Shown: positions 31,412-62,732 of the stretch, piece by piece | Position numbering within the stretch: the stretch's first letter is position 1 | How the letters are laid out: every line of letters starts with the position of its first letter | NCBI RefSeq assembly: GCF_000003815.2 | Contig: NC_049987.1 | Coordinates: forward strand, 10,832,714-10,896,713 | From: Branchiostoma floridae | Lineage: Eukaryota > Chordata > Leptocardii > Amphioxiformes > Branchiostomatidae | Direction of reading: 5' to 3' | Length of the DNA: 64,000 nucleotides | The notes under the pieces: generated by a model | Databases searched by the model: none | What the model was told of the DNA's origin: nothing | Seen by the model: only the letters and a program-made list of their open reading frames with translations | Program-made: the position numbers and the translations under genes

Positions 31412-31559
31412 CTACTGATCCCCATCGGAATACGGTGGAAGGGATGTCGAGTGAACCAGCCCTGCATTATTTAGAATAAAGAAAAAAATGTATGTTCAGC
31501 AATGTTTACTTACTTGTGAACACAATATTTTGTATCTTCATAGAAGACTACGTGCAATA

Positions 31560-33779
31560 AAAAATATAGCCAAACCATGGATCCATCAAAACAAAGAGAT
31601 CAAAGCGGCCATCCGACGAAAGCACCGGCTCCACTCCAGAGCCAAAAGCAAAAACACTCCTGAAGCCTGGTCTGCCTACAGGAAACAACGAAACCTGGTC
31701 ACCACCCTCACCAGAAACGCAGAGGCGGCATACATCCAAGAAGTGACGGAAGATGTAGAAGCTGGAAACACAAGGCGCTTCTTCTCCTTTGCCAAATCTG
31801 CTTTAGGAAAGGCGTCAACCGGCATCCCAGCACTCAAAGATGGGACAGATATCATTGAAAGACCCGAAGACAAGGCAAATGCCCTCAACAACTTTTTCAT
31901 ACAACAGACTGACCTAAATGACAGGAACGACTCCCCTCCCACCTTCCAACCAACGACAATCCCTGAAACAACACTAAGCAATCTTCAACTGACTGTAGAC
32001 GAAGTGCGACAGCAACTGAAAACGCTAAAGGTGGGCAAGTCCTGCGGTCCAGACAACATCACTCCAAACCTTCTCCGACAGGTAGCTGACACCATATGTG
32101 CACCCCTCACCCGGCTATTCAACACATCACTCAGCCTTGGTCAAGTTCCTTCTGGTTGGAAAGAGGCCAATGTAACCCCCATCCACAAATCCGGCAGTCG
32201 TCATCTCACCAACAACTACAGGCCGATTTCCCTGCTCAACATCGTTCCGAAAGTGCTAGAGTCACTAGTCAACAAACATCTAATTAAACAAATCAATCCA
32301 GTATTGTCCCACCACCAGAGCGGATTCAGAGCCCACGACAACACCACACTCCAACTAGCCCGACTTGTAGAGGAATGGACCCGAGCTATGGACAGAGGGG
32401 AAGTTGTTGGTTGCGTGTTTCTGGACCTGCGTAAAGCATTCGATAAAGTGTGGCACCAAGGGCTCTTGACCAAAATCCGAGCACATGGAATACATGGACC
32501 CATGCTGAACTGGTTCCACAGCTACCTATCGAACAGACGTCAAAGAGTAGTCATCCAGGGCGGAACATCCGAATGGAAATCTCCTCTCGCGGGTGTCCCA
32601 CAAGGTTCCGTACTAGGTCCCACCCTCTTCATCCTCTACATCAACGATCTACCCACCTGCTGCACACAGTCTGACGCAAACCTGTTCGCCGATGACACAT
32701 CACTCTCAACCAGCAACCGATCCGTCCAACATGTAGTCAACTCACTCAACACGGACCTACGGTCCGTATCCAACTGGCTAACAAACTGGAAGCTAGAAGC
32801 CAATGAGGACAAATGCAAGGTGATGTTCATCACAACCCGCACTCTCCCTAGACCCCCTGCTCCAGTCATACTAGGCGGTTGTACACTACAAGTTGTTACT
32901 AGCTACAAGCATCTTGGTGTCACCCTAACAAACACACTTTCCTGGTCTAAACACATTGAAACAACCTCCACTAAGTCAAGAAGATCTGCTGGCCTACTGT
33001 GTGCACTGAGAAAGAAGGTACCAAAGGATATCCTGCTCAGACTGTACAAAACCATCACCAGACCTGGTCTGGAGTACGCCGACGTCGTTTGGGCTGGACT
33101 CACCAAGCGCGACGAAACAAAACTGGAATCAATTCAATACCAAACTGCCAGACTGATCAGCGGACAACATGGACTCCCGTACCCGTCATACCAATCTCTG
33201 TACACCCAGCTATCCCTTCCATCACTGCAGTTCCGACGACAATTCCACACCGCTGTCACCCTGTACAAGCTCCTCAACGGTCACTGCCCTCCACACCTTC
33301 AAACCCTGATACCCAGAACCCGTGCGTCTGCTACTGAGTCACGTTACTCCCTCAGGAACAGCGACCACCTGACATCTGAACTCACTAAGTCCACCAGAGG
33401 CCAGAAAACACTCATCTACAGAGCAACAGCACTCTGGAACACTCTCCCTACTGCTACTCGCACAGCCACCTCCACGGCTTCTTTCAAAAGAAAACTGTGG
33501 GAATGTCTAGGCAACCCTTACGCATGGTAAATTAGTCATACACGTGTATATACTGACCCTGACCTCTCATTGCAAATATTGTTGTCGATGATATGATGTT
33601 ATATACTCCATTTTAGATGATATGTAAGTTATCCTACACCATGTACATACAAATGTTCTTTTTTTTAAATTTGTATTGTTTATGTGTTTGTCAGCAGGGC
33701 TAGCCCTTTGTAATAGCCATAGGCTAGTTGGGCAGCCCTGGCTGTGTGTTCGGTGCAGCCAAACCAATAAATAAATAAA
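31560..33779 (+). mobile_element. 5'-truncated CR1/Jockey-group LINE with intact RT domain
   Basis: An open frame to 33530 encodes a non-LTR reverse transcriptase: NYRPISLLNIVPKVLESL near residue 243, the motif A aspartate in FLDLRKAFDKVW (313), GVPQGSVLGP (369-378) and the catalytic FADD (400-403), followed by the thumb and a C-terminal tail ending at 680. Comparison with copies B and C places the insertion right after GCAATA at about 31560. The first 24 codons of the frame (from ATG 31488) are therefore host DNA and not LINE. The apurinic endonuclease domain expected upstream is missing, so it cannot transpose by itself. The 3' end is a (TAAA)n-like tail at 33764-33779. It lies in intron 10 of copy A, antisense to it. 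Confidence 0.88.
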
Positions 33780-34767
33780 AGGAGTAGATGTTTACCGGAG
33801 TAAGAAAGTCCAACCGACTCCCACTTCTTCTCCATCCGTGGCGGAGGCCGAGGCTTGAGTGTACCGTACATCTCCTGTAGCTCCAGGTCCTCCACACCGG
33901 AGTCAATGGTGCCGGTCTTGTACACGTACTTCGGTACAGGAGGCATCGGGCGGGAGGCGGACAGGTCAAGGGAGTCTAAAACATAGTGACAATTTTAAGT
34001 GTAGTATACACTGTTTCTTTTAGCAAAAACGTGAATTTGATTTTATAAAGATAGTCTAAGTCGACACTCCTATGTAACATAAGCAAACACGCACCGTCTT
34101 GATAAGACTTGCATATCCAGCCCTTCCTCTTGCAAATGACTATGGTAACCACCACAGCAACTGTCACCAGAAGAACCACTCCACCGGTGATAGCTGGGAT
34201 CATGACAGTCTTTGGAATGGATTCTGTTGAGCAGAAAATTAAAGACTGAATGTTACATATAGATTCACAAAGTTTTTGCCTTCTAGCAAGGTGAATTTTG
34301 TATAGTATAATAAAGCTCTAGGAAAATATATACTACCTTTGATCTCCAAGTGTATGTTTCGCTTGACAGTCCCGAACATGTTGGTTGTCTCGCAGATGTA
34401 GCTTCCACCATCCTTCACAGCCACATTCTGTATGGTCAGTGACGACGTCATTTCCTGGTTCCGTCTGGTTGTGACTATACGGAAATCAGCACTATCTAGC
34501 TCGGTTTCAAACCCGTAATTATTTCGCCAGGTCCACTGGACACGAGATGGCAAAGGGTCGGCTGCAACAGTACAAGCAAGTCGCACTGTTTCCCCGGTAT
34601 CGGCAGATACCATCGCTGTGTCGCCTTCTCCTTCCATATAGGGTTTTCCTGTGGAATATACATATCATTGAACTTAGATGGCTAGTAAAGGCCTACCTGC
34701 ATTTGGTTAAAGGTATACTGATTAGAGCGATGTATGACTATTATGAGTTAGAAATTCTATGCCTGTA

Positions 34768-35662
34768 ACATCTATTATCATAATACCGGTACGTTTACGA
34801 CGATTTCTCTAGCCATACTGATTTGACAAATTGTCAACACATCATTTTCTCCAGTTACATGTTGCTGTTATAGGTTACCCTTGCCACTTTTTCTGTGTAA
34901 CTTTTCTGCCACTCTTGTCCTGCTAAAAGCGTAATATTGTAATTGTAACACGCCGCGGAATTACACGGCGAACGGGCGCGTGGTTGGGAGGGGGTACAAA
35001 ATACCGGTAGGAAGAAACACGGCACAATTAACTGCCGCTATGTACATTTATACGTCCTCTGATGTTCCTTCCTTTTCTGTCAGTAAATGCATAAGACATA
35101 AACCTGCATGAGCATACAAAATGTCATGAGAAAACGGACGTATACTGTCAAGAATTTTCATTTAACTTCTGTCCGTCACAACCGCTATGACGTAACACTT
35201 CACTGCTAGCGTAGATATAAAAATGGCGGGAAAATGGCTGCGTACGTTCAATTTTGCCCATTCAGTCGTAGATCCGGGCTATTATGCAACGGTTCTTCAC
35301 ACTTTTACATGAGTTGTAGGTCACCAACAGAAATTCAAGATTGTTGTTGAATCATGTTCGTCTTGTGCCGTGAGCATGTGTAATTATGATCTATATAAAT
35401 TTGGCAATGAATGTGACAGTGTGTTCGTCCCACGACGAGCTGCCTACCCCGAAATTTAAAGAAAAGTATACTGAAAACTTTTGGCCTTGTTGTCTTCGAA
35501 TGCATTGTTATCGATGCTTTGTAAATGGTGTATTGGACACCTAGATGTCTGAAGTGTGCACAGCTCAGAAATAACTATTGTTGCATGTGTAGATCTCTTT
35601 AAGTTCCAGTATTTTTAATCTACCGGTATAAGTCTTACTACCGGTATTATGGCAATGCATGT
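34768..35662. mobile_element. MITE with TA target duplication, 895 bp
   Basis: Absent from the equivalent introns of copies B and C. The undisturbed site in copy C (around 52270) reads GCCTGTATATCAG. In copy A TA is present on both sides (34766-34767 and 35663-35664). The ends form imperfect inverted repeats with a shared CATAATACCGGTA block. TA duplications are usual for Tc1/mariner-type elements. No transposase is present. Confidence 0.8.
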
Positions 35663-37221
35663 TATATCAGCTCTAAGTTTTTTTTATAAATAATGATGAG
35701 GAACTAACCCACAACATCGATGAAAACATCCTTCGTCTTCTCAAGGAATCCATCGCTTGTTGCTACGCACTGATACATTCCTTCTACATCATAGCGCACA
35801 CGGTGGAACCGGAGAGGGTTTTTCCAGTACAACTTTGTATTCTTCCGCCGCCATGTTACTTTCGGTTTTGGATTTCCGTCGACCAGACAGTTCAGGGAGA
35901 AGTCATCATCCTCTGAAAGGGCGGTCACCTTGTCGTCCATGGAGGGGTCAATCAGCGGTGGGTCTATTTTCAACCAAAGAAAGAAGATAAGTAGTATTGA
36001 TTTAAATTGTTATCCAACATTCATCGCATGTTGATTATACGAAAACAAAATCATCTTTATTTTGTGAAAGACCTTCGTACACATGTAATAGAGATAACAA
36101 ACTGTCTATGTACAGACAATGAGCCTCATTCAATCTACGGAATTTGTCACTTGACAGTACTGACGCATATGATACGCTTATTGCGCAACAACAAAGTCTC
36201 CAATGGAACGCTGTGTATGTACGTATGTGTAAAAGTAGTAAACAGACCATACGTACACAAAACCTCTAATGTCACAGTCCCCATTCCTAAGTGAGCTACA
36301 CCATTGTCTGCCGTGCATTGGTAGGTTCCTGCATCCTGACGAGATGTACTGGGGATTCGAAACGTCTTCTGCCTGTGGAAGAAAAGAAATACGCAACCTG
36401 CCTTTTAAATCCAATTCACTGTATGATATAAGCGTTTATCTTGTACATTACTTGACTTGAAAAATAGTCGGGTAATTCTGTCGTATAAAGCCATTATACC
36501 CTATGTTGCCACTCATTAATGCTGGGCGGTGAGATCTTGTCCAGCTGATGGTTGCAGGAGGATTGCTGTCAACCAGGCAGGTCAGATCTGCTGAGTCTCC
36601 CTCTATGACGCGAACCGAAGGAGTGGGAACAGTCACGCTTGGGGGATCTAAGAATGAAAAAAACAACACAGGTATGTTGTAATTATGAACTGTTCAATGC
36701 AATAAAAATCGTATATATGCGGTGCATATATCTGGTCTACCAGGTGATGGTGACTTTATACAGTACGTTTACAGAATAGACTTAAACATGCGACTCACAA
36801 TGCACTTGCAAAATCGTCCAGGATTCCTGAGCAGAAGTGATCTCCGGAAATGGCTGGCTGGCTCTGCAGGTCAGGTTCATACCGTTATCCCATTTGGTCA
36901 GTCGCCGGATAGTAAGGTCAAGCTCTACTTGACTTTCACGTTCTTCAAAATTCACATCTTGCTCTGTAAACGCCTCCGTCCCATTGTACCAGGTAAGTTG
37001 AGGCAGTGGATGGCCTCCTGGAGATGTACAGCTTAACTCTAGCTGCTGCCCTGCCTGGACCGGTACTTCTGTACGTCGCAGTGTAGGGGGCTGGTGAACT
37101 GGAACTGCAATGAAACATATTGATTGTGAAAACTTGCATTTCATAAAAAAACATTCACCACCAATAAAGCCAATAGATGTCATCAAGAATCAACTTCATA
37201 TTTGTATCAAATACGTCTCAC

Positions 37222-37340
37222 CTACTACGGTTAGCGTTGCCTCTTTCATCCTCTAGTTGTGCTAGTCTAGCTCCTTCATCCTCTAGTTGTGCGTCCTGAA
37301 TTCGTAAATGAAACTCTCCTTTCTGCACGTTACCAACAAC
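37222..37340 (-). pseudogene. Frame-breaking exon 3 of copy A
   Basis: The exon has normal GT-AG borders but is 8 nt shorter than its homologues at 45281-45407 and 54557-54683. The first 19 codons align; then an internal near-duplicate block takes the place of the region encoding GAYTCSIFGLEP in copy B. The distal part again matches, but in another frame (TLTVVG). Confidence 0.8.
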
Positions 37341-40300
37341 CTGAGAAATCAATCGATAGTATATCAACAAATGATTAAGGGTGTTGCTAATAGATTCGGC
37401 TTGAAATCAAGGCTTACAGAAACACACGATTATGTTCATTCATGACCTATCCAGACGGCGCACACGATGAAGGACGTAATTTTAATAGCTGGAACTTATG
37501 TATAATTACGTTATGATGTGGATAAGAAAGACCTTGTAGCGTGGGTACTTTGGGTCCACTCTCCGGCCGGACGTTATGAACCGCCTAGGTGACCTAACCC
37601 AATTCACGACATCATCTGGTGACAGGTCACGGAAGCTGCAGTGAAGTGTAGCTGTATGGCCATGTAGGACAGCGGTGGGCAATGGAACTGCATTGTAGCT
37701 GACACAACTGGCTGTAATTTAAACACCTTAGGTGTGAGCTATCTTGCACATAACACATTGTAGAAGTGACATACTTGTTTGTGTCGTATTTGCCTATATA
37801 GACGTGATGCACCAAGAATACATCAAAGCGTCATTATACCAGTACAAAGAATTGATTTACGATTGTGACTGCATACTCACAAGAAATATCCCACTTATAA
37901 GGTACGTAGATAGCAATAGTAGAGGCGTTAGCTAGTAACATCCTTTCCCTATAACAATACCCTTTTACAGAGACAGCAAGAAAACTTGCTGAACTATGTG
38001 CCTACAAAATGAATGGCAACAACAACATACGTAGAACAGCAACAGAACGACATTATCATTGCTTACAATACATTCTCTATCCTTTGCTCCATCATAGCGT
38101 AATGGCCACACGATATGATCCCATTTACGTAGCAGTTGAGACACTTTAGAAGCAATCAGTGCGTGAACACTGTAAAGACTCGATCGTTTGGAGGAGCTTC
38201 TAGCTCAAGGTTAAAGCTTGTTATGACGTCGACGTCTATTTTGCTGTGGTGAGAGGCTTTGGGGCTTGCAGATGGTTTTGTTAGCCTCAATAAGCGTCAT
38301 GAAGGCCGTTCCGTCTACTGGCCAATTTGCGCAAAACAAAAGGCATATGACAAGACGTTTAAAACGTCCCCTTGGATTTGCCTCTTTTAAATAGTAATGC
38401 TTTTATTTCAATCCTTTTTCAAAATCCAAGACTGTAACAAAGCCTTAAGGTCAAAATAAAATCATTTTGTGTTATCTTAACAAACGAACTATTCTTATTA
38501 CTATGTCCTTTATTATATCTTTGTTATCTTCGTCAGTTGTAGCAACTACATTTTAACAACAAATAAATATGCCCCCTTCAATGGACATGATTGATGGTGC
38601 TCTTGTTTTGGCTTTCTATGATTTTATGGACAGACGTAAGTAGATTTGAACGAAGTGCGTAGTAAGAACGTGAATATATCACATGTTCCATTAGACCACA
38701 AAGCTTTAAATTACTTCAATAAGAATATTTTACTGTCCACGACACATAGCAATGTTCCAAGATAAAAATATTAAATATCTCCGGAGTACATTAACCGTTG
38801 TCAATATCTATTAGATAGATTATACGAACAGTTGGTTTATCCGCTTGCGGTGTTAACGCATTTCCGTTACATCTTGTTTGGTAGCTCATGTGTGGTGTGA
38901 TCGAAAAAAATATTCCAATGGATTGTTTTGCTGCCATTCATCATCACTACATAATGATAAATGAATGTGGTAAAATGCATAAGTAAGTATAGGCAATTCT
39001 AATAAAAGAAGCATGTGTCCTTGAACCATTCGAAAGCCCAGTAAAGCTCTCTCTAACGCTTTGGCGTCTTCACACTTTAAAGGAATACTAATGGCGTTAT
39101 TCAGAAGGAACAGTCCTGTTTGATTATAGCAACGGTAAGGTCAATTGCAGACCGGCAGCGCTTGTAGTTGTAGAAAAGCTGATACATTGTTACAAGTGAG
39201 CGACTCATTGATGATGATTGCATAGTGTTGCTATTATCATACATCTTGGTGATAATAGTGGCCCCGTAATAGCTCTTACTAACATTTACATTGAGGGTTC
39301 TATGTTCAGTGAACTGTTCCATGTTCTCGTCACGCCAAATTTCTTCATGAATGTATTATCGCCAAAGGCGATGTAACTGCATCGACTTGGGTAAGGTTGT
39401 AGAATAAGGTCATACACCATTACGAAAGTCATGAGCCATGGATGAATGACCATAAAGTATATCAAAAAATTACAGTAACTCCCTTCAGGTTGGAGTATAT
39501 AAGTCTTGTTCATTTTTTAACAACTTCACTAACATTATTTGTGCTTTAGTGGATCATGTACTCCTGTTATTGATTTAGCCGTAAATAAAGCATACTTTAT
39601 TCAGTGTGATATAAATACCGTGTCTGCTTTACACAAGGCATATCATCATTGTGCTGTTCATCGTGCCTCGGGTGTGTAACAATGAGGAATCATTTGACGT
39701 ATTTAAAGCTAAGGTAAGTGGGTAAAGTTAATGAATCATCAACCATATGATGATGAATGATGCCTTTGCTTCATTGTCACTAGCTGGTATCAATTCCCAA
39801 AAAACATTACCACCACGTATTCTTGATATGATTAACGTCATCACAAACAATATGTACAATATGACATGGTACTATCATCATTTATAACGTATGATTATTG
39901 GTCTCGCATGTATTTATACGGCAGTGTTCTTATGTTATGAAATGCAGGAAATACTTCATTTGCAAGCGTTTTGAAAAGGCTATGGCGTCTACATTCTATA
40001 GGGCCTAGTGTACTACATTTAGATCTAGTTATCATAATGACGGAAAGAGCCTGATAACAGCGATAGGTCAACAACATTCCAAAACAGCAAACCGCTAGAA
40101 AACAAACGACCTCCTGTTTAATTTTCATAACGGGTTCCGATTCATCACAAAGAATCTCTTGTTCTTAGAAGATGCAGATGAGACGAGATATCGACATGAC
40201 GACTAAGCGTACCCACCTTTACCCACCCAGTACAGATAGCATCATGCATGGCATAGCATAGAAAAAATGTCGTAACCAGTAATGAAAATATTGATTAGCT

Positions 40301-40372
40301 TCACCTACCGTCAGGAAAAACACTGAATAACCCGGCTGCAGCAAGCAAAAATACGTTTATGTTGGTCAGCAT

Positions 40373-42393: not shown

Positions 42394-45300
42394 CTACTGA
42401 TCCCCATCGGAATACGGTGGAAGGGATGTCGAGTGAACCAGCCCTGCAATATAAAGAATAAAGAAAAACGTATGTTCAGTAATGTTTACTTACTTGTGCG
42501 AACACAATTATAATTGTTGTCTTCACAGAAGACTACGTGCAATACAAATATAAAAGTAGTAGATGTTTACCTGAGTAAGAAAGTCCAACCGACTCCCACT
42601 TCTTCTCCATCCGTGGCGGAGGCCGAGGCTTGAGTGTACCGTACATCTCCTGTAGCTCCAGGTCCTCCACACCGGAGTCAATGGTGCCGGTCTTGTACAC
42701 GTACTTCGGTACAGGCGGCATCGGGCGGGAGGCGGACAAGTCAAAGGATTCTAAGAATAGTGGCATTAGTAACTGTTACGGTAGTATACATTACGTTGAT
42801 GAAAGTTATACATCCAGGTAATAAGATACGCCAAAACCAATTGATCGAGCAACTGGATATGGTTTTGGAAACAGTGACACCCATAGTGTACTGACGGAAG
42901 AAAACTGATGTTGTCTGAAACGTCTGACCGTTTCCAAAATCATATCCTGTTGCTTGAGGTGTTGTTTTTGGCGTAGTATTCACTATTTCGTTTAGTTAAA
43001 TCTTTAACCCTCAAGCACCCGACCTTTTTTTGCGACTAAAATGTTTGCAAGAATTCGGTGTTATATAAGTAGATAAATACCATCTTGATAAGACTTGCAC
43101 ATCAATCCCTTCTTCTTGCAGATGATTATAATAACCACCACAGCGACTGTCACCAGAAGAACCACTCCACCAGTGATAGCTGGGATCACGACAGTCTTCG
43201 GAATGGATTCTGTTGAGCAAAATTTAAAGACTGAATGGTACATATAGATTCACAAAGTTTTTGCCTTGCAGCAAGGTGAATTTTGTACACGTATAATAAA
43301 GCTCTGGGAAAATATATACTACCTTTGATCTCCAAGTGTATGTTTCGCTTGACAGTCCCGAACATGTTGGTCGTCTCGCAGATGTAGCTTCCACCATCCT
43401 TCACAGCCACATTCTGTATGGTCAGTGACGACGTCATTTCCTGGTTCCGTCTGGTTGTGACAATACGGAAATCAGCACTATCTAGCTCGGTTTCAAACCC
43501 GTAATTATTTCGCCATATCCACTGGACACGAGATGGCAAAGGATCGGCTGCAACAGTACAAGCAAGTCGCACTGTTTCCCCGGTATCAGCAGATACCATC
43601 GCCGTCTCGCCTTCTCCTTCCATATAGGGTTTGCCTGTGGAATATACGAATCACTAATCTTAGACGTCAACAACATTTCTTCCTGAATTCGAGAAGCTTA
43701 GAGCGAAGTGTGACTCTTATGAATTAGAAATTCTGTGACTAAAAATAATGATGAGGAACCAACCCACAACATCGATGAAAACATCCTTTGTCTTGTCAAG
43801 GAATCCATCACTTGTTGCTACGCACTGATACATTCCTTCTACATCATAGCGCACACGGTGGAACCGGAGAGGGTTTTTCCAGTACAACTTTGTATTCTTC
43901 CGCCGCCATGTTACTTTCGGTTTTGGATTTCCGTCCACCAGACAGTTCAGGGAGAAGTCATCATCCTCTGAAAGGGCGGTCACTTTGTCGTCCATAGAGG
44001 GGTCAATCAGCGGTGGGTCTATTTTTCAACCAAAGAAAGAAGATAAGTACTATTGATTTAAATTGTTATCCAACATTCATCGCATGTTGATTATACGAAA
44101 ACAACATCATCTTTATTTTGTGAAAGACCTTCGTACACATGTAATAGAGATAACAAACTGTCTATGTACAGACAATGAGCCTCATTCAATCTACGGAATT
44201 TGTCACTTGACAGTACTGACGCTTATAATACGCTTATTGCGCAACAACAAAGTCTCCAATGGAACGCTGTGTATGTACGTATGTGTAAAAGTAGTATACA
44301 GACCATACGTACACAAAACCTCTAATGTCACAGTCCCCACTCCTAAGGGAGCTACACCATTGTCTGCCGTGCATTGGTAAGTTCCTGCATCCTGACGAGA
44401 TGTACTGGGGATTCGAAACGTCTTCTGCCTGTGGAAGAAAAGAAATACGCAACCTGCCTTTTAAATCCAATTCACATGTATGATATAAGCGTTTATCTTG
44501 TACATTACTTGACTTGAAAAATAGTCGGGTAATTCTGTCGTATAAAGTCATTATACCCTATGTTGCCACTCATTAATGCTGGGCGGTGAGATCTTGTCCA
44601 GCTGATGGTTGCAGGAGGATTGCTGTCCACCAGGCAGGTCAGATCTGCTGAGTCTCCCTCTATGACGCGAACCGAAGGAGTGGGAACAGTCACGCTTGGG
44701 GGATCTAAGAATGAAAAAAAAAAAACAGGTATGTTGTAATTATGAACTGTCCAATGCAATAAAAATCGTATATATACGGTGCATATATCTGGTCTACCAT
44801 AGAGACTTTATACTGTACATTTACAGAATAGACTTAAACGTGCGACTCACAATGCACTCGTAAAATCGTCCAAGATTCCTGCGTAGAAGTGATCTCCGGA
44901 AATGGCTGGCTGGCTTTGCAGGTCAGGTTCATACCGTTATCCCATTTGGTCAGTCGCTGGATAGTAAATTCAAGCTCTACTTGACTTTCACGGTCTTTAA
45001 AATTCACATGTTGCTCTGTAAATGCCTCCGTCCCATTGTACCAGGTCAGCTGAGGCAGTGGATGGCCTCCTGAAGATGTACAGCTTAATTCTAGCTGCTG
45101 CCCAGCCTGTCCTGGAACTTCCGCACCTCTCAGTGTAGGGGGTTGAGGAATAGGTACTGAAATGAAATACGTTTGAGATGTTTTGTTACTGTGAAAATAT
45201 GTATTCTACGAAAAGACAAATTTACCTAGAACGCCAAGAGGAATCATTGAGAATCAAGTATTGCATCAAATGTTTCTTACCTACTACAGTTAACATTGCT

Positions 45301-48300: not shown

Positions 48301-48899
48301 GACACTAGCTGGTATCAATTCCCAAAAAACATCACCGCCACAATATTCTTGGCATAATTAACGTCATCACAAACAATATGTACAATATGACATGGTACTA
48401 TCATCATTTATAACGTATGATTATTGGTCTCGCATGTATTTTTACGGCAATGTTCTTATGTTACGAAATACAGGAAATACTTCATTTGCAAGCGTTTTGA
48501 AAAGGCTATGGCGTCTACATTCTATAGGGCCTAGTGTACTACATTTAGATCTAGTTATCATAATGACGGAAAGAGCCTGATAACAGCGATAGGTCAACAA
48601 CATTCCAAAACAGCAAACCGCTAGAAAACAAACGACCTCCTGTTTAATTTTCATAACGGGTTCCGATTCATCACAAAGAATCTCTTGTTCTTAGAAGATG
48701 CAGATGAGACGAGATATCGACATGACGACTAAGCGTAACCCACCTTTACCCACCCAGTACAGATAGCATCATGCATGGCATAGCATAGACAAAATGTCGT
48801 AACCAGTAATGAAAATATTGATTAGCTTCACCTACCGTCAGGAAAAACAGTGAATAACCCGGCTGCAGCAAGCAAAAATACGTTTTTGTTGGTCAGCAT
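42394..48899 (-). CDS. Kirrel/Neph-like Ig adhesion receptor, copy B
   Basis: Predicted 622-residue type I membrane protein of the Kirrel/Neph (kin of IRRE, SYG-1, Roughest) family, cell-surface adhesion receptors that bind themselves or nephrin-type partners. Exons: 48899-48836, 45794-45613, 45407-45281, 45156-44851, 44704-44557, 44428-44313, 44018-43764, 43634-43323, 43209-43081, 42750-42571 and 42443-42394 (TAG stop at 42396-42394). They sum to 1869 nt with matched phases throughout. Domains: signal peptide (1-21, MLTNKNVFLLAAAGLF), Ig1 (about 25-124, YPRYQVVGDVQKGEFNLRIQ, typical of Neph Ig1), Ig2 (125-226), Ig3 (227-314), Ig4 (315-399), Ig5 (400-503, VQWIWRNNYG), membrane span (about 511-533) and an 87-residue tail. 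Each Ig domain keeps its cysteine pair (LHC/YTC, LSC/LTC, LTC/YQC, LNC/YQC, LAC/YIC). The tail has KPRPPPR and LPPY but no C-terminal PDZ ligand. Family assignment is from memory of the sequences. Confidence 0.85.
42825..42980. mobile_element. Hairpin MITE in intron 9 of copy B
   Basis: Inverted arms of about 45-50 bp share ACGCCAAAA, a GCAAC block and GGATATG(G/A)TTTTGGAAAC. The equivalent copy A intron (between 33976 and 34094) lacks it; copy C has it at 51342-51500. The host sequence on both sides is GTAGTAT(A/T)CA(C/T). Confidence 0.7.
47227..47764 (+). pseudogene. 5'-truncated LINE fragment in intron 1 of copy B
   Basis: Encodes the end of a non-LTR ORF2: KYCIEKYLELCDFEQRSATS, ISAHPLEIEKGRY, then RICKYCPSNAVEDESHFITN, giving C-x2-C-x8-H-x4-C. 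The frame stops at 47649, and the element ends with AATAAACAT near 47757. The intact site in copies A and C reads GTGTTGCTATTATCATAC, so the insertion point falls between GTTGCTA and TTATC. No clear target duplication is seen. It is antisense to the host gene and unrelated in sequence to the LINE at 31560. Confidence 0.75.
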
Positions 48900-50909
48900 C
48901 TTGTTAGTGATACTTGCAGCAGGTCCGTGGCGATATGGTACGCCGAAGACGGGCTCAGACATATGCCAAAAAGACCACAAGGGGGAGCTAGATCCTCTCT
49001 GGGCGCATCAATATGGCATTACAGGGAGCAGAAAGGATAGAAGCGTATCGTCTGGCATTTCACTGACGGATTGCGTGTGTATCAGTCCGCACACACCCAT
49101 AGACCCAGGCCCTAAATGAAATCCTTCTACGGCCCTCGGGGAAAGCTGAACACATTAGTTCGGCTGGAAGATCCCAGTAATGTGTTCCAATTACATTATG
49201 TCATCCATAATGCATAGCCTAAGTCAGTTAGTAAAGATTTGGTGCACAACTTCCAGGAACAATGAGATCATGAACTTGCAGCAGGCTGCAAAAATCATTG
49301 AAATAGGAATTGTTATTTTTATACAGATATGCAGTCAATTAATGTTGTTTATAGATACGGAAAAAATCGATACCCAAAGCCCTTTTTCCAAACTAAAGAT
49401 TACCCGAAGCTTCCCGTTTACGTGTGACAAATAAGAGATAATGTTTCCTCGTAAACCCTTAAGCTTCCTATGATTCTTTTTACTGCTATCTTCTGTGAAA
49501 GAAATGGATTTTTTTTCTTATAATCAAACCTTTCTAATATGTTTTTGAAATGGATTTGTCACGTACTTTATGATTATCGATGTTTGGTTGTTACTGATAG
49601 TGATGACACGTGCGATTACAAGAAGGACTGCATAACTGAACAATTTTGTGCTTACATTTGTACGTTAGTCCTTTCATTTATTGATCGTTTATCTTTACAT
49701 CATTTGAATTTAAAGCTGTGAATACTTATGATTTGAAACAGAGAGACCTGTGCGTTTACCAATACTGGGGTAGCCTTATGTATCATGGAGTGAAAAGAGC
49801 TGCGACCTCTTGCGACCCGCTTATGATTGCATCCACTGTAACCTTAGACGAATAAATTGCATTAAGATAGATTATTGACTTGCGCAAGAGCCTTCCATAT
49901 ACTGGTACCAATGTCTTGACCAATTTAGGATAAGCAATTTAAATTACAGCTGCGCATGAATGGTCATATAACACCATGTATACGATATACACAGTATACG
50001 ATCACAGTGTGTCATATTCTATGGTGCGGTACAGTACGTGGTTTCTGCCTAGAAGTTAACACACAGAGATCAACTGTCTTAACTTTATTTCATTCACATT
50101 GGTACAGATGTCACTAGAATGGAACAGATGTTATTGTTAGTCTAACTATCTACGTCTCATGATGTTTAGCTACGTTTACAGAACAGCACAGAGGCATCTG
50201 AAATCTATGTCACATAATATTGAAATATCCACAGGACACATGTTTATCATTTACTATCACAATGTCTAACTACACATTATACTTTTCTGTACTTTGTGTT
50301 AATGAGTATGTTGTGTTGCAACAAATGTCAGTTGACATCCAAATTCATTAAATGCTACTTAACATACTTCAAACCCATCAAACATCGATAAAACAATCTC
50401 ATCATCATCAGGAGAGTGCCCCGGACAAAGTTCACTCTCCTTGTCAAAGTTCGGCCATGACATGACACTTTGTACTAATTACCTGCTGTCACACAGATGT
50501 AAAAATGCTGGCCTTTTGATGATTGCACGTCAATGCTATAGGTTGCTCAGCAACGCAATAAGCAACCTAGAAAATATGTTTACATGCGTCCGTCAAAAAT
50601 GCAATGTTCAATGGTACCTATATCCTCAAGGTATCGACTGCAAATGATATGACATTCTAGCAGATAATATCACACGCACTAATTATATATAATATAAATA
50701 GTTCCGTTGATAATTACTGAAACGACTATTACAAAATCTTTCATTTGAAGAAACATTAACTCCACTACTTTCTACTCTCGTCTCAGTGTGAAACAAATTT
50801 CAACCACGCTGTATATAATGTAAAATATTGCAAAATGTTCATATAAATATGAAGTGCCAACCTGTAAACTACTCCGTGTAATAACAAATTGAGAATCGCA
50901 ATGTCGGTG
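48900..50909. other. Intergenic between copies C and B
   Basis: Same organisation as 40373-42393 and very similar in sequence. It holds the upstream region of copy B and the 3' flank of copy C, including a minus-strand AATAAA at 50084-50089. Confidence 0.45.
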
Positions 50910-53900
50910 CTACTGGTCCCCATCGGAATACGGTGGAAGGGATGTCGAGTGAACCAGGCCTGCATTATTCAGAATAAAGAAAAAATGTATGTTCAGCAAT
51001 GTTTACTTACTTGTGAACACAATATTTTGTATCTTCACAGAAGGCTACGTGCAATACAAACTCATGATAAAAGTAGTAGATGTTTACCTGAGTAAGAAAG
51101 TCCAACCGACTCCCACTTCTTCTCCATCCGTGGCGGAGGCCGAGGCTTGAGTGTACCGTACATCTCCTGTAGCTCCAGGTCCTCCACACCGGAGTCAATG
51201 GTGCCGGTCTTGTACACGTACTTCGGTACAGGGGGCATCGGGCGGGAGGCGGACAAGTCAAAGAATTCTAAGAATAGTGGCATTAGTAACTGTTACGGTA
51301 GTATACATTACGTTGATGAAAGTTATACATCCAGGTAATAAGATACGCCAAAACCAATTGATCGAGCAACTGGATATGGTTTTGGAAACAGTGACACCCA
51401 TAGTGTACTGACGGAAGAAACTGATGTTGTCTGAAACATCTGACCGTTTCCAAAATCATATCCTGTTGCTTGAGGTGTTGTTTTTGGCGTAGTATTCACT
51501 ATTTCGTTTAATAAAATCTTTAATGCAGACTTACTTTTATGCAGATAGCTTTTAAGCAGATTTTTTGCAAGAATTCGGTGTTATATAGGCAGATAAATAC
51601 CATCTTGATAAGACTTGCATATCCAGCCCTTCCTCTTGCAAATGATTATAATAACCACCACAGCGACTGTCAACAGAAGAACCACTCCACCAGTGATAGC
51701 TGGGATCATGACAGTCTTTGGAATGGATTCTGTTGAGCAAAAGTTAAAGACTGAATGTTACATATAGATTCACAAAGCTTTTGCATTGCAGCAAAGTGAA
51801 TGTTGTATACGTATAATAAAGCTCTAGGAAAATATATACTACCTTTGATCTCCAAGTTTATGTTTCGCTTGACAGTCCCGAACATGTTGGTTGTCTGGCA
51901 GATGTAGCTTCCACCATCCTTCACAGCCACATTCTTTATGGTCAGTGACGACGTCATTTCCTGGTTCCGTCTGGTTGTGACAATATGGAAATCAGCACTA
52001 TCTAGCTCGGTTTCCAACCCGTAATTATTTCGCCATATCCACTGGACACGAGATGGCAAAGGGTCAGCTGCAACAGTACAAGCAAGTCGCACTGTTTCCC
52101 CGGTATCGGCAGATACCATCGCTGTGTCGCCTTCTTCTTCCATATAGGGTTTTCCTGTGAAATATACATATCATTGAACTTAGATGGCTTGTAAATGCCT
52201 ACCTGCATTTGGTTAAAGGTATACTGATTAGAGCGATGTATGGCTATAATGAGTTAGAAATTCTATGCCTGTATATCAGCTCTAAGTTTTTTTATAAATA
52301 ATGATGAGGAACTAACCCACAACATCGATGAAAACATCCTTTGTCTTCTCAAGAAATCCATCACTTGTTGCTACGCACTGATACATTCCATCTACATCAT
52401 AGCGCACACGGTGGAACCGGAGAGGGTTTTTCCAGTACAACTTTGTATTCTTCCGCCGCCATGTTACTTTCGGTTTTGGATTTCCGTCCACCAGACAGTT
52501 CAGGGAGAAGTCATCATCCTCTGAAAGGGCGGTCACCTTGTCGTCCATGGAGGGGTCAATCAGCGGTGGGTCTATTTTCAACCAAAGAAAGAAGATAAGT
52601 ACTATTGATTTAAATTGCTATCCAACATTCATCGCATGTTGATTATTCGAAAACAAAATCTTCTTTATTTTGTGAAAGACCTTCGTACACATGTAATAGA
52701 GATAACAAACTGTCTATGTACAGACAATGAGCCTCATTCAATCTACGGAATTTGTCACTTGACAGTACTAACGCTTATAATACGCTTATTGCGCAACAAC
52801 AAAGTCTCCAATGGAATGCTGTGTATGTACGTATGTGTAAAAGTAGTAAACAAATCATACGTACACAAAACCTCTAATGTCACAGTCCCCATTCCTAAGG
52901 GAGCTACACCATTGTCTGCCGTGCATTGGTAAGTTCCTGCATCCTGACGAGATGTACTGGGAATTCGAAACGTTTTCTGCCTGTGGAACACGAGAAAGAT
53001 GCAGCCTTGAAAAAACAATTAACTGTATAATGTAACAGAGTGTTTATTTTGTTCTTTACTTGACAAAACGTCGGGAAATTCTGTACGGTAAACCACTAAC
53101 TTCAAAGTAACGCTTTTGTCGTATGAAGCTATTACCCGATATTGCCACTGAGTAATGCAGGGCGGCCAGGTCTTGTCCAGCTGATAGTTGCAGGAGGATT
53201 GCTGTCCACCAGGCAGGTCAGATCTGCTGAGTCACCCTCGATGACGTGAACAGATGCAATGGGAACAGCCACACTTGGGGGATCTAAGAATGGAAAGAAA
53301 AACACATGAAAGTTGTAATAATGCACTGTCCAATGCTATAAAAATCGTATATATATGCGGTGCACGTATCAGGCTACCACGTAGACTGTATACGCTTACA
53401 ATGTATAATTAAGGGTTAATGACCCGCCTCGAGGTGTATATGGTGTCATAACGCCTGGTCCTTTGCTATAACCACCGAATAAAACCACCGAGTGAGCGAA
53501 GCGAACGAGGTGGTTTTATGAGGTGGTTATAGCAAAGGATCAGGCGTTATGACACCATGTACACCGAGGAACAGGCGGGTCATTAACGTTATTATCATAT
53601 AGCCTACCCAAACTTGCAAACTCCTGTATGACGCATAGATCCCTTGGTACTATACGTATGAATTCCTTTGTCGAATTTCTGAAAGTTCATATTTGTTCCT
53701 TGGTACATTTGTTTAAAGATTGCAGTTTGAAACCAAAATTTCCACAGAAAATATTTAAAACATTGCAGTCTTCGCTTTTTCGAACAACAAAACTCATTAT
53801 CAATGTTAACATTGTCTGTACTTTTTTCCCTCTGCTCTGGCATATGTTTCGCTCCTTTTGATTGGCCAAACCCTGCATATCTGTGTGTATCAGTCTGGTT

Positions 53901-56900
53901 GGTCAGAATGAATCGACACCGGCACCGGTGCCGGTGTCGATGCAAATCGACACCGGTGCCGGTGTCGATCCATTCTGACCAATCAGAAGAGGATACACAC
54001 CGGCCTGGCCAGAATCTAAGTGTTATGGCGACATAACCAACGTGGAACGGGGCCTTCTGATTGGTCCGCGGCGCCTGGCTATATGATAATAGACTTTAAC
54101 ATAATGGCAACTCACAATGCACTCGCAAAATCGTCCAGGATTCCTGAGCTGAAGTGATCTCCGGAAATGGCTGGCTGGCTCTGCAGGTCAGATTCATACC
54201 GTTATCCCATTTGGTCAGACGCCGGATAGTAAGGTCAAGCTGTACTTGACTTTCATGTTCTTCAAAATTAACGTCTTGCTCCGTAAATGCCTTCGTTCCA
54301 TTGTACCAGGTAAGTTGAGGCTGTGGATGGCCACCTGAAGATGTACAGCTAAGCACTAGCTGCTGCCCAGCCTGACCTGGAACTTCCGCACCCCTCAGTG
54401 TTGGGAGCTGAGGAATAGGTACTGATATAAAATACGTTTGATAAGTTTTTGTACTGTGCAAATATGTATTAGACGAAAAGACAACTTTAGCTAGAGAATC
54501 AACCAAGAGTAGTACCTTGAGAATCAATCAAGAGTATTGCATCAAATGTTTCTTACCAACTACAGTTAACATCGCTTCTTTAGGCTCAAGACCGAAGACA
54601 TTACACGTGTAAGCTCCTCTGTCCTCTAGGTTAGCGTCCTGGATCCTTAAATGAAACTCTCCTTTCTGCACGTCGCCAACAACCTGAGACATAGTTTGAA
54701 ATGTTTAACCGATGGCTCTAATGAATTTGACCTGAAATCAAGGAAGAACATAGATTTTTCTCTTATCCATTAATACAGCTAGATGAAACTAAAAGCTAAT
54801 TCAATTACCTTGTAATGTTGTGTTATAAAGGAAACTACGTAAGTAAAAAACAGACAGACCTGGTAGCGTGGGTACTTTGGGTCCACCCTCCGGCCAGATG
54901 AAATGGCTCTTCCAGGTGATGACCTAACCCAACTAACAACATCATCTGGTGACAAGTCATGGAAGCTGCAGTGAAGCGTAGCTGTATGACCCAGTAGTAC
55001 AGCGGTGGGCAATGGAACTGCATTGTAGCTGACACCGCTAGCTGTAATATGAATAGCGACTTAGTTGTGATCTATATTGCACATCACACATTTGTCTACT
55101 TGTTTGTGTCGTGATTGCTTATAGATGTGGTGCCCCTAAAGTACACTTAAGCGTCATTATATCAGTACAAAGAATTGATTTATGATTGTAACTGCATACT
55201 GACAAGAAATATGCCACAGTATAAGCTGTCAGTGAGTGAATATCAATGGTAGTGGATAAGCTAGCAACCTCTCCCTGTAACAATACCCTGCTACAGAAAC
55301 AGAAAGGAAACTTGCTGAGCTATGTGCCTCTAGGTCCTACAAGATGAATGGCAACAACAAACATATGTAGAGCGGCAACAGGACGAAATTATCATAGATT
55401 AAGATACATTCACTATCCTTTGCCCCAGTATAGCGTAATGGCCACGCGATCTGCACCGTTTATGTAGCAGTTGAGGCACTTTAGAAGCAATCAGTGCGTG
55501 AACACCGTAAAGACTCGATCGTTTGGAGGAGCATCTAGCTCAAGGTTAAAGCTTGTTATGACGTCTTCTCAGCTATGTAGAGAGGCTTTGGGGCTACCAT
55601 GGTTTTGCCAGCTTCAGAAAGCGTCATGAAGGCCGTCCCGTCTACTAGCCAATTTGCGCAAAACGAAAGGCACATGACAAGCCGTTTAAAGTGTCCCCTT
55701 GGATTTGTCTCCTTTAAAAAGTATTTTATTTATTTCGATCTTTTTATTCAATCCAGGTGCATATCAAGACTGTAACAAAGCTTGAAGATCAAAATTAGTT
55801 AGTTTTATGTTAATCTTAGAAAACTGAACTATTTTCACTACTATGTTCTTTACTAGTTTGTTGAATGCTTCATCGGTTGTAGCAGCTGCAACAGATAAAT
55901 ATGACCCCTATGATTGATGATGCTTTTGGGCCCTTGTTTTGGCTTTCTATGCTTTTATGGACAGCCGCAGGTAGGTTTCAACGAAGTGCGTAGTAAGAAC
56001 GTGAGGATGTCACATGTTCCATTAGACCACAAAGCTTTTACTTCAACAAAATATTTTGCTTTCCATATGACACATATGCATAACAAGCCTACTTTCCAAA
56101 AGTTTTTATATTACATATCTGCGGAAAGTACATTAACCGTTGTCAATGTTTATTGGATAGATTATACTAACGGTTGGTTTATCCGCTTGCGGTGTTAACG
56201 CATTTCAGTTACATCTTGTTTGGTAGCTCATGTGTGGTGTGATCGAAAAAAATATTCCAATCGATTGTTGTGTTATCATTCATCATCACTGCATAATGAT
56301 AAATGAATGTGGTAAAATGAATAAGTAAGTATAGGCAATTCTAATAAAAGAAGCATGTGTCCTTGAACCATTCGAAAGCCCAGTAAAGCTCTCTCTAACG
56401 CTTTCGTGTCTTCACAAAGGAATACTAATGGTGTTATTGAGAAGAAACAGTCCTGTTTGATTATAGCAACAGTAAGGTCAATTGCAGACCGGCAGCGCTT
56501 GTAGATGAGCTGATACATTGTTACAAGTGAGCGACTCATTGATGATGACTGCACTTCAGTGTTGCTATTATCATACATCTTGGTGATACTAGAGGCCCCG
56601 TAATAGCTCTCACTAACATTAACATTGAAGGTCCCATGTTCAGTGATCTGTTCCATGTTCTCGTCACGCCAATTTTCTTCATGAATGTATTATCGCTAAA
56701 GGCGATGTAACTGCATCGACTCCGGTAAGGTTGTAGAATAAGGTCATACACCATTACGAAAGTCATGAGCCATGGATGAATGACCATAAAGTATATCAAC
56801 AAATTACAGTAGCTCCCTTTAGGCTCGAGTCAATAGGTCATGTTCATTTTTTAACAACTTCAGTTACATTATTTGTGCTTTAGTGGATCATGTGCTCCTG

Positions 56901-57707
56901 TTATTGATTTAGCCGTAGATAAAGTATACTTTATTCAGTGATCATATAAATACTATGTCTGCTTTACACAAGGCATACATCATTGTGCTGTTCATCGTGC
57001 CTCGGGTGTGTAACAATGAGTAATCATTTAACATATTTAAAGCTGAGGTAAGTGGGTAAAGTTAATGAATCATCAACCATATGATGATGAATGATGCCTT
57101 GGCTTCATTGTCACTAGCTGGTATCAATTCCCAAAAAACATCACCGCCACATATTCTTGAAATGATTAACGTCATCACCAACAATATGTACAATATGACA
57201 TGGTACTATCATCATTTATAACGTATGATTATTGGTCTCGCATGTATTTATACGGCAGTGTTCTTATGTTACGAAATACAGGAAATACTTCATTTGCAAG
57301 CGTCTTGAAAAGGCTATGGCGTCTACATTCTATAGGGCCTAGTGTACTACATTTAGATCTAGTTATCATAATGACGGAAAGATCCTGATAACAGCGATAG
57401 GTCAACAACATTCCAAAACAGCAAACCGCTAGAAAACAAACGACCTCCTGTTTAATTTTCATAACGGGTTCCGATTCATCACAAAGAATCTCTTGTTCTT
57501 AGAAGATGCAGATGAGACGAGATATCGACATGACGACTAAGCGTAACCCACCTTTACCCACCCAGTACAGATAGCATCATGCATGGCATAGCATAGACAA
57601 AATGTCGTAACCAGTAATGAAAATATTGATTAGCTTCACCTACCGTCAGGAAAAACAGTGAATAACCCGGCTGCAGCAAGCAAAAATACGTTTATGTTGG
57701 TCAGCAT
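50910..57707 (-). CDS. Kirrel/Neph-like Ig adhesion receptor, copy C
   Basis: Predicted 622-residue protein with the same architecture as copy B. Exons: 57707-57644, 55041-54860, 54683-54557, 54421-54116, 53283-53136, 52980-52865, 52571-52317, 52154-51843, 51729-51601, 51267-51088 and 50959-50910. The lengths equal those of copy B exon for exon and sum to 1869 nt. The signal peptide is MLTNINVFLLAAAGLF. Ig1 contains VSWVRSSPGRAISSGRRVDP and YTCNVFGLEP; Ig5 contains VQWIWRNNYGLETELDSADF. The membrane span lies within MIPAITGGVVLLLTVAVVV. Ig3 (exon 5) differs more from copies A and B than the other exons do. Intron 4 carries a foldback and a palindrome-bearing element (53415-54090), the latter ending only about 25 bp from the exon 4 donor. 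An in-frame TAG lies upstream of the start in the copy A equivalent. Confidence 0.84.
51342..51500. mobile_element. Hairpin MITE in intron 9 of copy C
   Basis: Orthologous to the copy at 42825-42980 with the same borders and internal pairing. Confidence 0.7.
53415..53587. mobile_element. 173-bp foldback with TTAA ends
   Basis: GTTAATGACCCGCCT at 53415 pairs with its exact inverse ending at 53587. The arms continue for about 75 bp with few mismatches around a small loop containing GAGCGAAGCGAAC. Absent from intron 4 of copies A and B. Confidence 0.8.
53588..54090. mobile_element. MITE with TTATCATATAGCC ends and internal palindromes
   Basis: TTATCATATAGCC near 53592 pairs with GGCTATATGATAA at about 54076-54089. 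Inside lies a nested palindrome (53899-53982). The right 100 bp matches, inverted, the left end of the insertion at 58652, including an AATCAGAAGGCCCC block. The minus-strand frame 53604-53945 is not supported as a gene. Confidence 0.7.
53899..53982. repeat. Nested GC-rich palindrome
   Basis: A perfect 30-bp palindrome (53912-53941, built from ATCGACACCGG and GGTGCC steps) is followed 4 bp later by a 24-bp near-palindrome of the same motif (53946-53969). Both sit inside an outer inverted pair, TTGGTCAGAAT (53899-53909) and ATTCTGACCAA (53972-53982). Confidence 0.9.
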
Positions 57708-59435: not shown

Positions 59436-60146
59436 TTTATTGACTTGAGCAAGAGCCTTCCATATACTGGGACCAATGTCTTGACCAATTTAGGGTAAGC
59501 AATTTAAATTACAGCTGCGCATGAATGGTCAAATAAGACCCTGTATACGATATACACAGTATACGATCACAGAGTATCATATTCTATGATGCGGTACAGT
59601 ACGTGGTTTCTGCCTAGAAGGTAACACACAGAGATCAACTGGCTTAACTTTATTTCATTCACATTGGTACAGATGTCACTAGAATGGAACAGATGTTATT
59701 GGTAGTCTAACTATCTACGTCTCATGATGTCTAGCTACGTTTACAGAACAGCACAGAGGCATTTGAAATCTATGTCACATAATATTGAAATATCCACAGG
59801 ACTCATGTTTATCATTTACTATCACAATGTCTAACTATACATTATACTTTTCTGTACTTGGGTTAATGAGTATGCTGTGTTGCAACAAATGTTAGCTGAC
59901 ATATAAAATTCATTCAATGCTACTTAACATACTTCAAACCCATCAGACATCGATAAAACAATCTCATCATCATCAGGAGAGTGCCCCGGACAAAGTTCAC
60001 TCTCCTTGTCAAAGTTCGGCCATGACATGGCCCTATGTACTAATTACCTGCTCCCACACAGATGTAAAAATGCTGGCCTTTTGATGATTGCACGTCAATG
60101 CTATAGGTTGCTCAGCAACGCAATAAACAACCTAGAAAATATGTTT
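59436..60146 (-). pseudogene. 3' flank of the deleted copy D
   Basis: It aligns with 49884-50593, the region downstream of copy C, and then jumps at 60146 to sequence equivalent to 55105 in intron 1 of copy C. All of exons 2-11 of copy D are therefore missing, about 4.5 kb. Confidence 0.75.
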
Positions 60147-62732
60147 CGTGATTGCTTATAGATGTGGTGCCCCTAGAGTACACTAAAGCGTCATTATATC
60201 AGTACAAAGAATTGATTTATGATTGTAATTGCATACTGACCAGAAATATGCCACAGTATAAGCTGTCAGTGAGTGANNNNNNNNNNNNNNNNNNNNNNNN
60301 NNNNNNNNNNNNNNNNNNNNNNNNNNNNNNNNNNNNNNNNNNNNNNNNNNNNNNNNNNNNNNNNNNNNNNNNNNNNNNNNNNNNNNNNNAACAACACAAC
60401 ATATGTAGAGCGGCAACAGGGCGAAATTATCATAGATTACAATACATTCACTATCCTTTGCCCCATTATAGCGTAATGGCCACGCGATCTGCACCGTTTA
60501 TGTAGCAGTTGAGGCACTTTAGAAGCAATCAGTGCGTGAACACCGTAAAGACTCGATCGTTTGGAGGAGCATCTAGCTCAAGGTTAAAGCTTGTTATGAA
60601 GTCTTCTCAGCTATGTAGAGAGGCTTTGGGGCTACCATGGTTTTGCCAGCTTCAGAAAGCGTCATGAAGGCCGTCCCGTCTACTAGCCAATTTGCGCAAA
60701 ACGAAAGGCACATGACAAGCCGTTTAAAGTGTCCCCTTGGATTTGTCTCCTTTAAAACGTATTTTATTTATTTCGATCTTTTTATTCAATCCAGGTGCAT
60801 ATCAAGACTGTAACAAAGCTTGAAGATCAAAATTAGTTAGTTTTATGTTAATCTTAGAAAACTGAACTATTTTCACTACTATGTTCTTTACTAGTTTGTT
60901 GAATGCTTCATCAGTTGTAGCAGCTGCAACAGATAAATATGACCCCTATGATTGATGATGCTTTTGGGCCCTTGTTTTGGCTTTCTATGCTTTTATGGAC
61001 AGCCGCAGGTAGGTTTCAACGAAGTGCGTAGTAAGAACGTGAGGATGTCACATGTTCCATTAGACCACAAAGCTTTTACTTCAACAAAATATTTTGCTTT
61101 CCATATGACACATATGCATAACAAGCCTACTTTCCAAAAGTATTTATATTACATATCTGCGGAAAGTACATTAACCGTTGTCAATGTTTATTGGATAGAT
61201 TATACTAACGGTTGGTTTATCCGCTTGCGGTGTTAACGCATTTCCGTTACATCTTGTTTGGTAGCTCATGTGTGGTGTGATCGATTGTTGTGTTATCATT
61301 CATCATCACTGCATAATGATAAATGAATGTGGTAAAATGAATAAGTAAGTATAGGCAATTCTAATAAAAGAAGCATGTGTCCTTGAACCATTCGAAAGCC
61401 CAGTAAAGCTCTCTCTAACGCTTTCGTGTCTTCACACTTAAAAGGAATACTAATGGTGTTATTGAGAAGAAACAGTCCTGTTTGATTATAGCAACAGTAA
61501 GGTCAATTGCAGACCGGCAGGGCTTGTAGATGAGCTGATACATTGTTACAAGTGAGCGACTCATTGATGATGACTGCACTTCAGTGTTGCTATTATCATA
61601 CATCTTGGTGATACTAGAGGCCCCGTAATAGCTCTCACTAACATTAACATTGAAGGTCCCATGTTCAGTGATCTGTTCCATGTTCTCGTCACGCCAATTT
61701 TCTTCATGAATGTATTATCGCTAAAGGCGATGTAACTGCATCGACTCCGGTAAGGTTGTAGAATAAGGTCATACACCATTACGAAAGTCATGAGCCATGG
61801 ATGAATGACCATAAAGTATATCAACAAATTACAGTAGCTCCCTTTAGGCTCGAGTCAATAGGTCATGTTCATTTTTTAACAACTTCAGTTACATTATTTG
61901 TGCTTTAGTGGATCATGTGCTCCTGTTATTGATTTAGCCGTAGATAAAGTATACTTTATTCAGTGATCATATAAATACTATGTCTGCTTTACACAAGGCA
62001 TACATCATTGTGCTGTTCATCGTGCCTCGGGTGTGTAACAATGAGTAATCATTTAACATATTTAAAGCTGAGGTAAGTGGGTAAAGTTAATGAATCATCA
62101 ACCATATGATGATGAATGATGCCTTTGCTTCATTGTCACTAGCTGGTATCAATTCCCAAAAAGCATCACCGCCACATATTCTTGAAATGATTAACGTCAT
62201 CACCAACAATATGTACAATATGACATCTTACTATCATCATTTATAACGTATGATTATTGGTCTCGCATGTATTTATACGGCAGTGTTCTTATGTTACGAA
62301 ATACAGGAAATACTTCATTTGCAAGCGTCTTGAAAAGGCTATGGCGTCTACATTCTATAGGGCCTAGTGTACTACATTTAGATCTAGTTATCATAATGAC
62401 GGAAAGATCCTGATAACAGCGATATGTCAACAACATTCCAAAACAGCAAACCGCTAGAAAACAAACGACCTCCTGTTTAATTTTCATAACGGGTTCCGAT
62501 TCATCACAAAGAATCTCTTGTTCTTAGAAGATGCAGATGAGACGAGATATCGACATGACGACTAAGCGTAACCCACCTTTACCCACCCAGTACAGATAGC
62601 ATAATGCATGGCATAGCATAGACAAAATGTCGTAACCAGTAATGAAAATATTGATTAGCTTCACCTACCGTCAGGAAAAAGAGTGAATAACCCGGCTGCA
62701 GCAAGCAAAAATACGTTTATGTTGGTCAGCAT
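60147..62732 (-). pseudogene. Kirrel-like copy D: signal-peptide exon and intron 1 only
   Basis: The first exon, 62732-62669 (64 nt), encodes MLTNINVFLLAAAGLFTLFP plus one residue and a split codon, with the donor GTAGGT, identical in structure to copies A-C. The following 2.5 kb is intron 1 of a copy almost identical to copy C (55105-57643). No Ig, membrane or tail exon follows before the breakpoint at 60146. On its own the locus cannot encode a receptor. Its promoter and first exon remain intact and in the right phase (1) to splice to exon 2 of copy C. Confidence 0.75.
60277..60389. other. Assembly gap of 113 N
   Basis: It lies in intron 1 of copy D. The homologous interval in copy C (55240-55352) is also about 113 bp long, so the missing sequence is probably a simple homologue of it. 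Confidence 0.9.

Follow-up and report, generated by a model that had tools for sequence, protein, structure and literature searches.

A Kirrel-related immunoglobulin receptor array and its chromosome-clustered family in the lancelet Branchiostoma floridae

What kind of receptor is encoded by a head-to-tail gene array in the lancelet Branchiostoma floridae, and does the array amount to a local increase of Kirrel genes? The array lies at 31412-62732 of a 64,000-nucleotide stretch of contig NC_049987.1 (assembly GCF_000003815.2; C9:10832714-10896713 in our numbering of contigs), here called the window. A reading made from the sequence alone had described three full copies and one relic of Kirrel/Neph-like receptor genes, and had suggested that a recent local expansion would mean a lineage-specific repertoire. 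We find that two of the copies, B and C, are probably functional genes encoding single-pass adhesion receptors that have five immunoglobulin (Ig) domains, and that they belong to a large, chromosome-clustered family probably derived from Kirrel, at least in its membrane-distal part. By sequence comparison, this family is related to Kirrel but is not canonical Kirrel.

Self-comparison of the window reveals head-to-tail repeats from 31.3 to 63.1 kb, which bears out the tandem arrangement, and the outer limits of the array had been placed correctly. All of its genes are on the minus strand. Copies B (42394-48899) and C (50910-57707) are intact. The predicted exon lengths (64, 182, 127, 306, 148, 116, 255, 312, 129, 180 and 50 nt) are exact in both, with compatible phases and 623 codons, stop included, that contain no internal stop. 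Every junction in A, B and C is canonical (GT at 30 of 30 donors, AG at 30 of 30 acceptors), and the gene models of B and C are sound. Pfam detects five Ig stretches. In copy B, exon 1 (48899-48836) precedes domain 1 (D1; exon 2, 45794-45613, and exon 3, 45407-45281), domain 2 (exon 4, 45156-44851), domain 3 (exon 5, 44704-44557, and exon 6, 44428-44313), domain 4 (exon 7, 44018-43764) and domain 5 (exon 8, 43634-43323). Exon 9 (43209-43081) encodes the transmembrane segment, judged hydrophobic by reading its sequence, and exons 10 (42750-42571) and 11 (42443-42394) encode the cytoplasmic tail. The exons of copy C are, from 1 to 11, 57707-57644, 55041-54860, 54683-54557, 54421-54116, 53283-53136, 52980-52865, 52571-52317, 52154-51843, 51729-51601, 51267-51088 and 50959-50910. 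A candidate exon 1 at the ATG ahead of the hydrophobic stretch MKIKQEVVCF was rejected; the 64-nt exon with its GT donor sits elsewhere and is common to all four copies.

The third supposedly full copy is damaged. Copy A (31412-40372) comprises exons at 40372-40309, 37711-37533, 37340-37222, 37104-36799, 36647-36500, 36372-36257, 35963-35709, 34648-34337, 34223-34095, 33975-33796 and 31461-31412. It is broken in exon 3: compared with copy B, exons 2 and 3 are shorter by 3 and 8 nt (179 and 119 nt long), the F-strand Cys of domain 1 is lost, and standard junctions lead to a stop at codon 174. Exons 4-11 remain open over 1496 nt. An alternative donor inside exon 3 could restore the frame, with the Cys still lost. 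Intron 10, of 127 bp in B and 128 bp in C, measures 2334 bp in this copy and contains a reverse transcriptase-domain open frame of 691 amino acids, stop to stop (31455-33530, plus strand), from an element resembling those without long terminal repeats. The first few bases of this frame overlap exon 11 of copy A, and the remainder lies inside the intron.

Copy D consists of exon 1 only (62669-62732, minus strand), with the signal peptide MLTNINVFLLAAAGLFTLFPD, and is the single relic that had been proposed. On its left flank, a match to 50400-50581 of copy C passes directly into a match to 55105-55239 at a joint with a 5-bp overlap (60142-60146); about 4.5 kb, including exons 2-11, is gone. A 113-N gap at 60277-60389 has the same length as 55240-55352 of copy C. 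Since the joint falls within assembled sequence and the gap is as long as the matching stretch of C, exons 2-11 have been deleted and D is a true relic. We rejected the alternative of a full gene hidden by the gap, which stands for 113 bp of C.

The intact frames are maintained by selection. Between B and C there are 64.5 synonymous changes over 442.8 sites and 50.5 nonsynonymous changes over 1423.2 sites (ratio of nonsynonymous to synonymous divergence, dN/dS, 0.22), an imbalance that excludes chance (Fisher p 1.3e-14, counts rounded down). Every domain of ten sampled genes is under purifying selection; with a median pairwise omega of 0.10-0.25 for all seven segments compared, we rejected diversifying selection at the scale of whole domains. 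Divergence among the copies is patchy. B and C differ in synonymous divergence (dS) by 0.30, 0.34 and 0.20 in domains 1-3, then by 0.06 and 0.08 in domains 4 and 5, 0.10 in the transmembrane segment and 0.06 in the tail. Between A and B, domain 3 is near-identical (0.03) while domains 1 and 2 stand at 0.45 and 0.29, and the exon 1 region is 97-99% identical across 201 bp in all four copies. Such a patchwork would be consistent with gene conversion or with unequal exchange.

The duplicates are real, but the expansion extends far beyond the window. We searched 513,431,437 bases in 431 contigs. The complete protein gave 84 matches, with 71 of 699 candidates scored. Domain 1 gave 72 matches in 58 places, 50 of them on C9 (96 of 96 candidates scored); looser joining gives 57, and the 58 include two canonical Kirrels on C1 and some weak matches, so the family count is approximate. 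The tail exon gave 40 matches in 38 places, 34 of them on C9 (48 of 48 scored). Of the 58 D1 places, 33 have a same-strand tail no more than 20 kb downstream, and 5 of the 38 tails have no D1. Relatives of domain 1 at C9:8.5-8.7, 9.9-10.2 and 22.3-22.5 Mb have no conserved tail nearby and perhaps form a second subfamily with another tail.

We defined 20 further genes in stretches L021-L040, and the matching exons follow one another in order on one strand. Exons 2-8 and 10 are all present in 16 of them. Exons 2-3 are missing from 3.912 and 23.908, where the stretch ends and the D1 places fall just beyond it; 7.233 lacks exons 2-4, and 7.033 has exons 7, 8 and 10 only. When 22 of the 23 sampled genes are placed in a tree, A and B group with support 83, A-C with 100, and A-C together with C9:7.233/10.729 with 93. 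Domain 1 is split by intron 2 in the window-like group, including A-C, and is contiguous in the distant L025, L026, L031, L032 and L034; canonical Kirrel D1 is likewise contained in one exon. Because several distant members and canonical Kirrel share this state, the splitting intron appears to have been gained in the window-like group.

The claimed likeness to Kirrel is borne out for the membrane-distal domains. When the whole protein is compared with the PDB, the highest summed scores belong to DSCAM, titin and MDGA1; we rejected DSCAM and titin as nearest kin, their scores being sums of several weaker stretches. For domains 1-2, the best single alignment among those listed is Kirrel1, with 56.9 bits for copy B. 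A profile of ten members reaches 84.7 bits with Kirrel1 across both domains, versus 42.0 for the best neurotrimin stretch. In the genome, copy B domain 1 matches places on C9, C4, C7 and C138, which we take as family (most of the higher C9 matches, though not all, are sampled members or tail-bearing), and then canonical Kirrel at C1:8260893 with 48.8 bits. Conversely, domains 1-2 of mouse Kirrel1 (74 of 74 candidates scored, 28 matches) find C1:8260860 (73.8 bits) and C1:8299385 (61.7) first, next C1:8309496 (45.6), C9:9623743 (41.9) and C1:8324754 (41.5), and then family D1s from 40.4 bits down, along with a handful of places on C4, C6 and C17. The C1 Kirrel is the best of nine reference D1s for 16 of 16 family D1s, only two of these references being non-Kirrel. 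The two leading C1 exons, L041 (C1:8260860, minus strand) and L042 (C1:8299385, plus strand), are arranged head to head with about 38 kb between them, which recalls the mammalian KIRREL2-NPHS1 pair, also head to head.

Family members lack residues that mark canonical Kirrel. The motif W.KD occurs in 0 of 16 family D1s, while the full W.KD..LG occurs in 7 of 7 canonical ones. A Gln after the F-strand Cys (CQ) is found in 0 of 18 members versus 7 of 7 canonical D1s, and a Gln before the C-strand Trp (QW) in 0 of 19 versus 6 of 7, mouse Kirrel3 being the exception. Strand names in domain 1 (C-C', F) are those we presume from general knowledge of Ig folds. A review presents Q53-Q54 as a key glutamine-glutamine contact between the first Ig domains of SYG-1 and SYG-2 (PMC13388366), and KIRREL3 Q128 is reported to be required for trans-homophilic binding (PMC12497595). 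The positions that we counted as CQ and QW probably correspond to Q128 and Q53/Q54. The contact between Sns and Kirre has also been placed in their first Ig domains (PMC12489029).

Domain 1 carries a variable hairpin. Codons 56-72 of copy B (AVSWVRSSPARAITIGR; 45643-45693, minus strand) encode the C-C' hairpin and lie in the most variable part of ten window-like genes, copy A among them. Over 569 windows of 17 residues (residues 22-606), 58-74 and 54-70 rank first with 3.53 residues per column, 56-72 has 3.47, and the next non-overlapping window, in domain 2, has 3.06. At least four residues occur in 7 of the 17 hairpin columns and in 13 of the 86 other columns of domain 1 (Fisher p 0.021); the equivalent 17-residue stretches at the Trp of domains 2-5 have 1, 3, 0 and 3. 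The ratio of nonsynonymous to synonymous differences per site (pN/pS) is 0.53 in the hairpin and 0.27 in the rest of domain 1. The hairpin would belong to the face through which Kirrel-type receptors bind.

The opposite end of the protein is conserved. In the window-like group, mean pair identity is 92.7% for exon 10 and 68.1% for domain 1. No Pfam family matches the 76-residue tail, which contains the proline-rich PMPPVPK and KPRPPPR, followed by GT.DSGVEDLELQE and YGTL, whose Tyr is mostly D in the distant group. Presumably these motifs are to be read in terms of SH3, YxxL and PDZ interactions. Exon 11, recognised in a motif scan by its start GLVHS(S/T)S(L/V)PPYS, is present in A, B and C and in 7 of the 20 further genes. 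The C-terminal PDZ-binding motif of Kirrel/Neph proteins is missing from B and C, which end in SDGDQ, to our knowledge no known PDZ ligand. Distant members 3.912 and 20.002 continue into an extra exon with PPVPPPKDG, 20.002 ending in CEIF, and the short tail of B and C therefore looks derived.

Several observations weigh against a single Kirrel-derived family with a diversified binding face. At 25 of the 58 D1 places, many of them on C9, there is no tail nearby, and the single-family label is an assumption. The canonical signatures are missing. Summed weak domain scores of DSCAM exceed Kirrel1 in both searches with domains 1-2, and the margin over SYG-2 (74.1 bits in total), Rst (63.9), SYG-1 (63.4) and DIP-gamma (63.1) is modest; because these totals already fall below the Kirrel1 alignment, no single stretch of theirs can equal it. 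The D1 tree is poorly resolved, with family member 11.643 and neurotrimin grouping with the Kirrels. A genome search with domain 5 (150 of 187 candidates scored, 69 matches) misses canonical Kirrel, its best match outside the family contigs being C1:20829455 at 40.4 bits. The hairpin was picked post hoc, after inspection of the data, and loops vary in any case. Its pN/pS is below 1, and at 0.53 relaxed constraint is possible.

The alternative that survives best is another Ig branch, such as nephrin, IgLON/DIP or Siglec-like receptors, that resembles Kirrel in domain 1 only. MAG, which aligns in one continuous stretch across domains 2-5 (82.3 bits), would suit such an origin, as would the domain 5 result and the score of SYG-2, a nephrin relative. 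We nonetheless regard it as unlikely: the match between domain 1 and canonical Kirrel is two-way and genome-wide, and the one-exon D1 is common to several divergent members and canonical Kirrel.

It is considerably less probable that the genes are strict Kirrel/Neph orthologues, that is, a local copy increase of the canonical gene with glutamine-based binding kept. Kirrel1 does give the best single PDB alignment, and five Ig domains with a hydrophobic segment are what a Kirrel would have. A canonical Kirrel D1 exists separately on C1, however, the three signatures are absent throughout the sampled D1s, domain 5 does not find canonical Kirrel in 150 of 187 candidates scored, and B and C terminate in SDGDQ on a different tail. 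In this strict sense the Kirrel identification does not hold.

Certain relatives are nearly identical over long distances. C9:10728887-10730891 and C9:7235104-7233098 share 99.65% identity over 2007 bp, and L021/L022 (C9:10.720-10.740 Mb) and L023/L024 (C9:7.227-7.247 Mb), 3.5 Mb apart, share 601 bp at 100%; most other aligned pieces are 73-94% identical. These stretches could reflect recent conversion, inverted duplication or an assembly mosaic, and some family members may be unmerged haplotypes. It is nevertheless highly improbable that part of the array or family is an artefact of unmerged haplotypes set head to tail or misplaced: this near-identity, several family pairs with near-equal scores, and the account in PMC7269912 that divergent B. 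floridae haplotypes were assembled apart and then merged are opposed by dS of 0.27-0.48 among A, B and C in domains 1 and 2 (probably beyond allelic difference), by three copies where one gene would have two haplotypes, and by the separate lesions of A and D.

We thus favor a Kirrel-derived family of five-Ig receptors. In such receptors, domain 1 may bind a partner receptor, or itself, on an adjoining cell via its GFCC' face, providing heterophilic or homophilic surface recognition. The conserved tail would link members to shared cytoplasmic partners, possibly SH3 adaptors and adaptors for endocytosis or kinases. The tail and the membrane-proximal half may be homogenised by duplication and gene conversion while the distal domains diverge; the homogenised 3' half and diverged 5' half suggest that exchange between neighbours can separate the constant from the variable part of a receptor. 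If expressed, these genes would give lancelets a large Kirrel-related receptor set with variation concentrated at the presumed Kirrel-type binding site, and one could then test whether a shared ancestral adhesion domain gives rise to large recognition repertoires in different phyla. One could envision, tentatively and with more doubt than confidence, that several dozen Kirrel-derived receptors which discarded the glutamine contact, diversified the hairpin and kept one constant tail form a combinatorial code of cell recognition, of neural or allo-immune use, that evolved independently in the lineage sister to tunicates and vertebrates.

Amphioxus is credited with one Kirrel and one NPHS in PMC8805411, and a table in PMC8294545 gives one Branchiostoma accession each in what are presumably its KIRREL and nephrin columns. 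Judged by titles, the starts of abstracts and passages, the open-licence literature yielded no account of a lancelet Kirrel-type expansion.

Elsewhere in the window, tandem repeats of roughly 120-bp period form two inverted blocks, at 24036-25259 and 27730-29088, and an F5/8 type C (discoidin) domain is encoded by an open frame at 1871-2392 on the plus strand.

Among known systems, the Kirrel/Neph receptors (mouse Kirrel1-3, fly Rst and Kirre, worm SYG-1) resemble the lancelet family in their five Ig domains, domains 1-2, transmembrane segment and possession of a cytoplasmic tail. They differ in carrying W.KD..LG and the CQ/QW glutamines, whereas the lancelet family has a different tail and dozens of copies. 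The canonical Kirrel at C1:8260860 and its neighbour at C1:8299385 provide the nearest D1 outside the family, with the same one-exon structure as several divergent members, but they lie on another chromosome, have the canonical motifs and are missed by the tail search. Nephrin and SYG-2, the partner side of Kirrel, are related in domains 1-2 (74.1 bits for SYG-2); they have more Ig domains and an FN3 domain, in contrast to the five Ig domains here. The fly Dpr/DIP receptors offer a parallel in their many paralogues, which could diversify a D1 binding face. They have two or three Ig domains and score below Kirrel1 in the PDB comparison.

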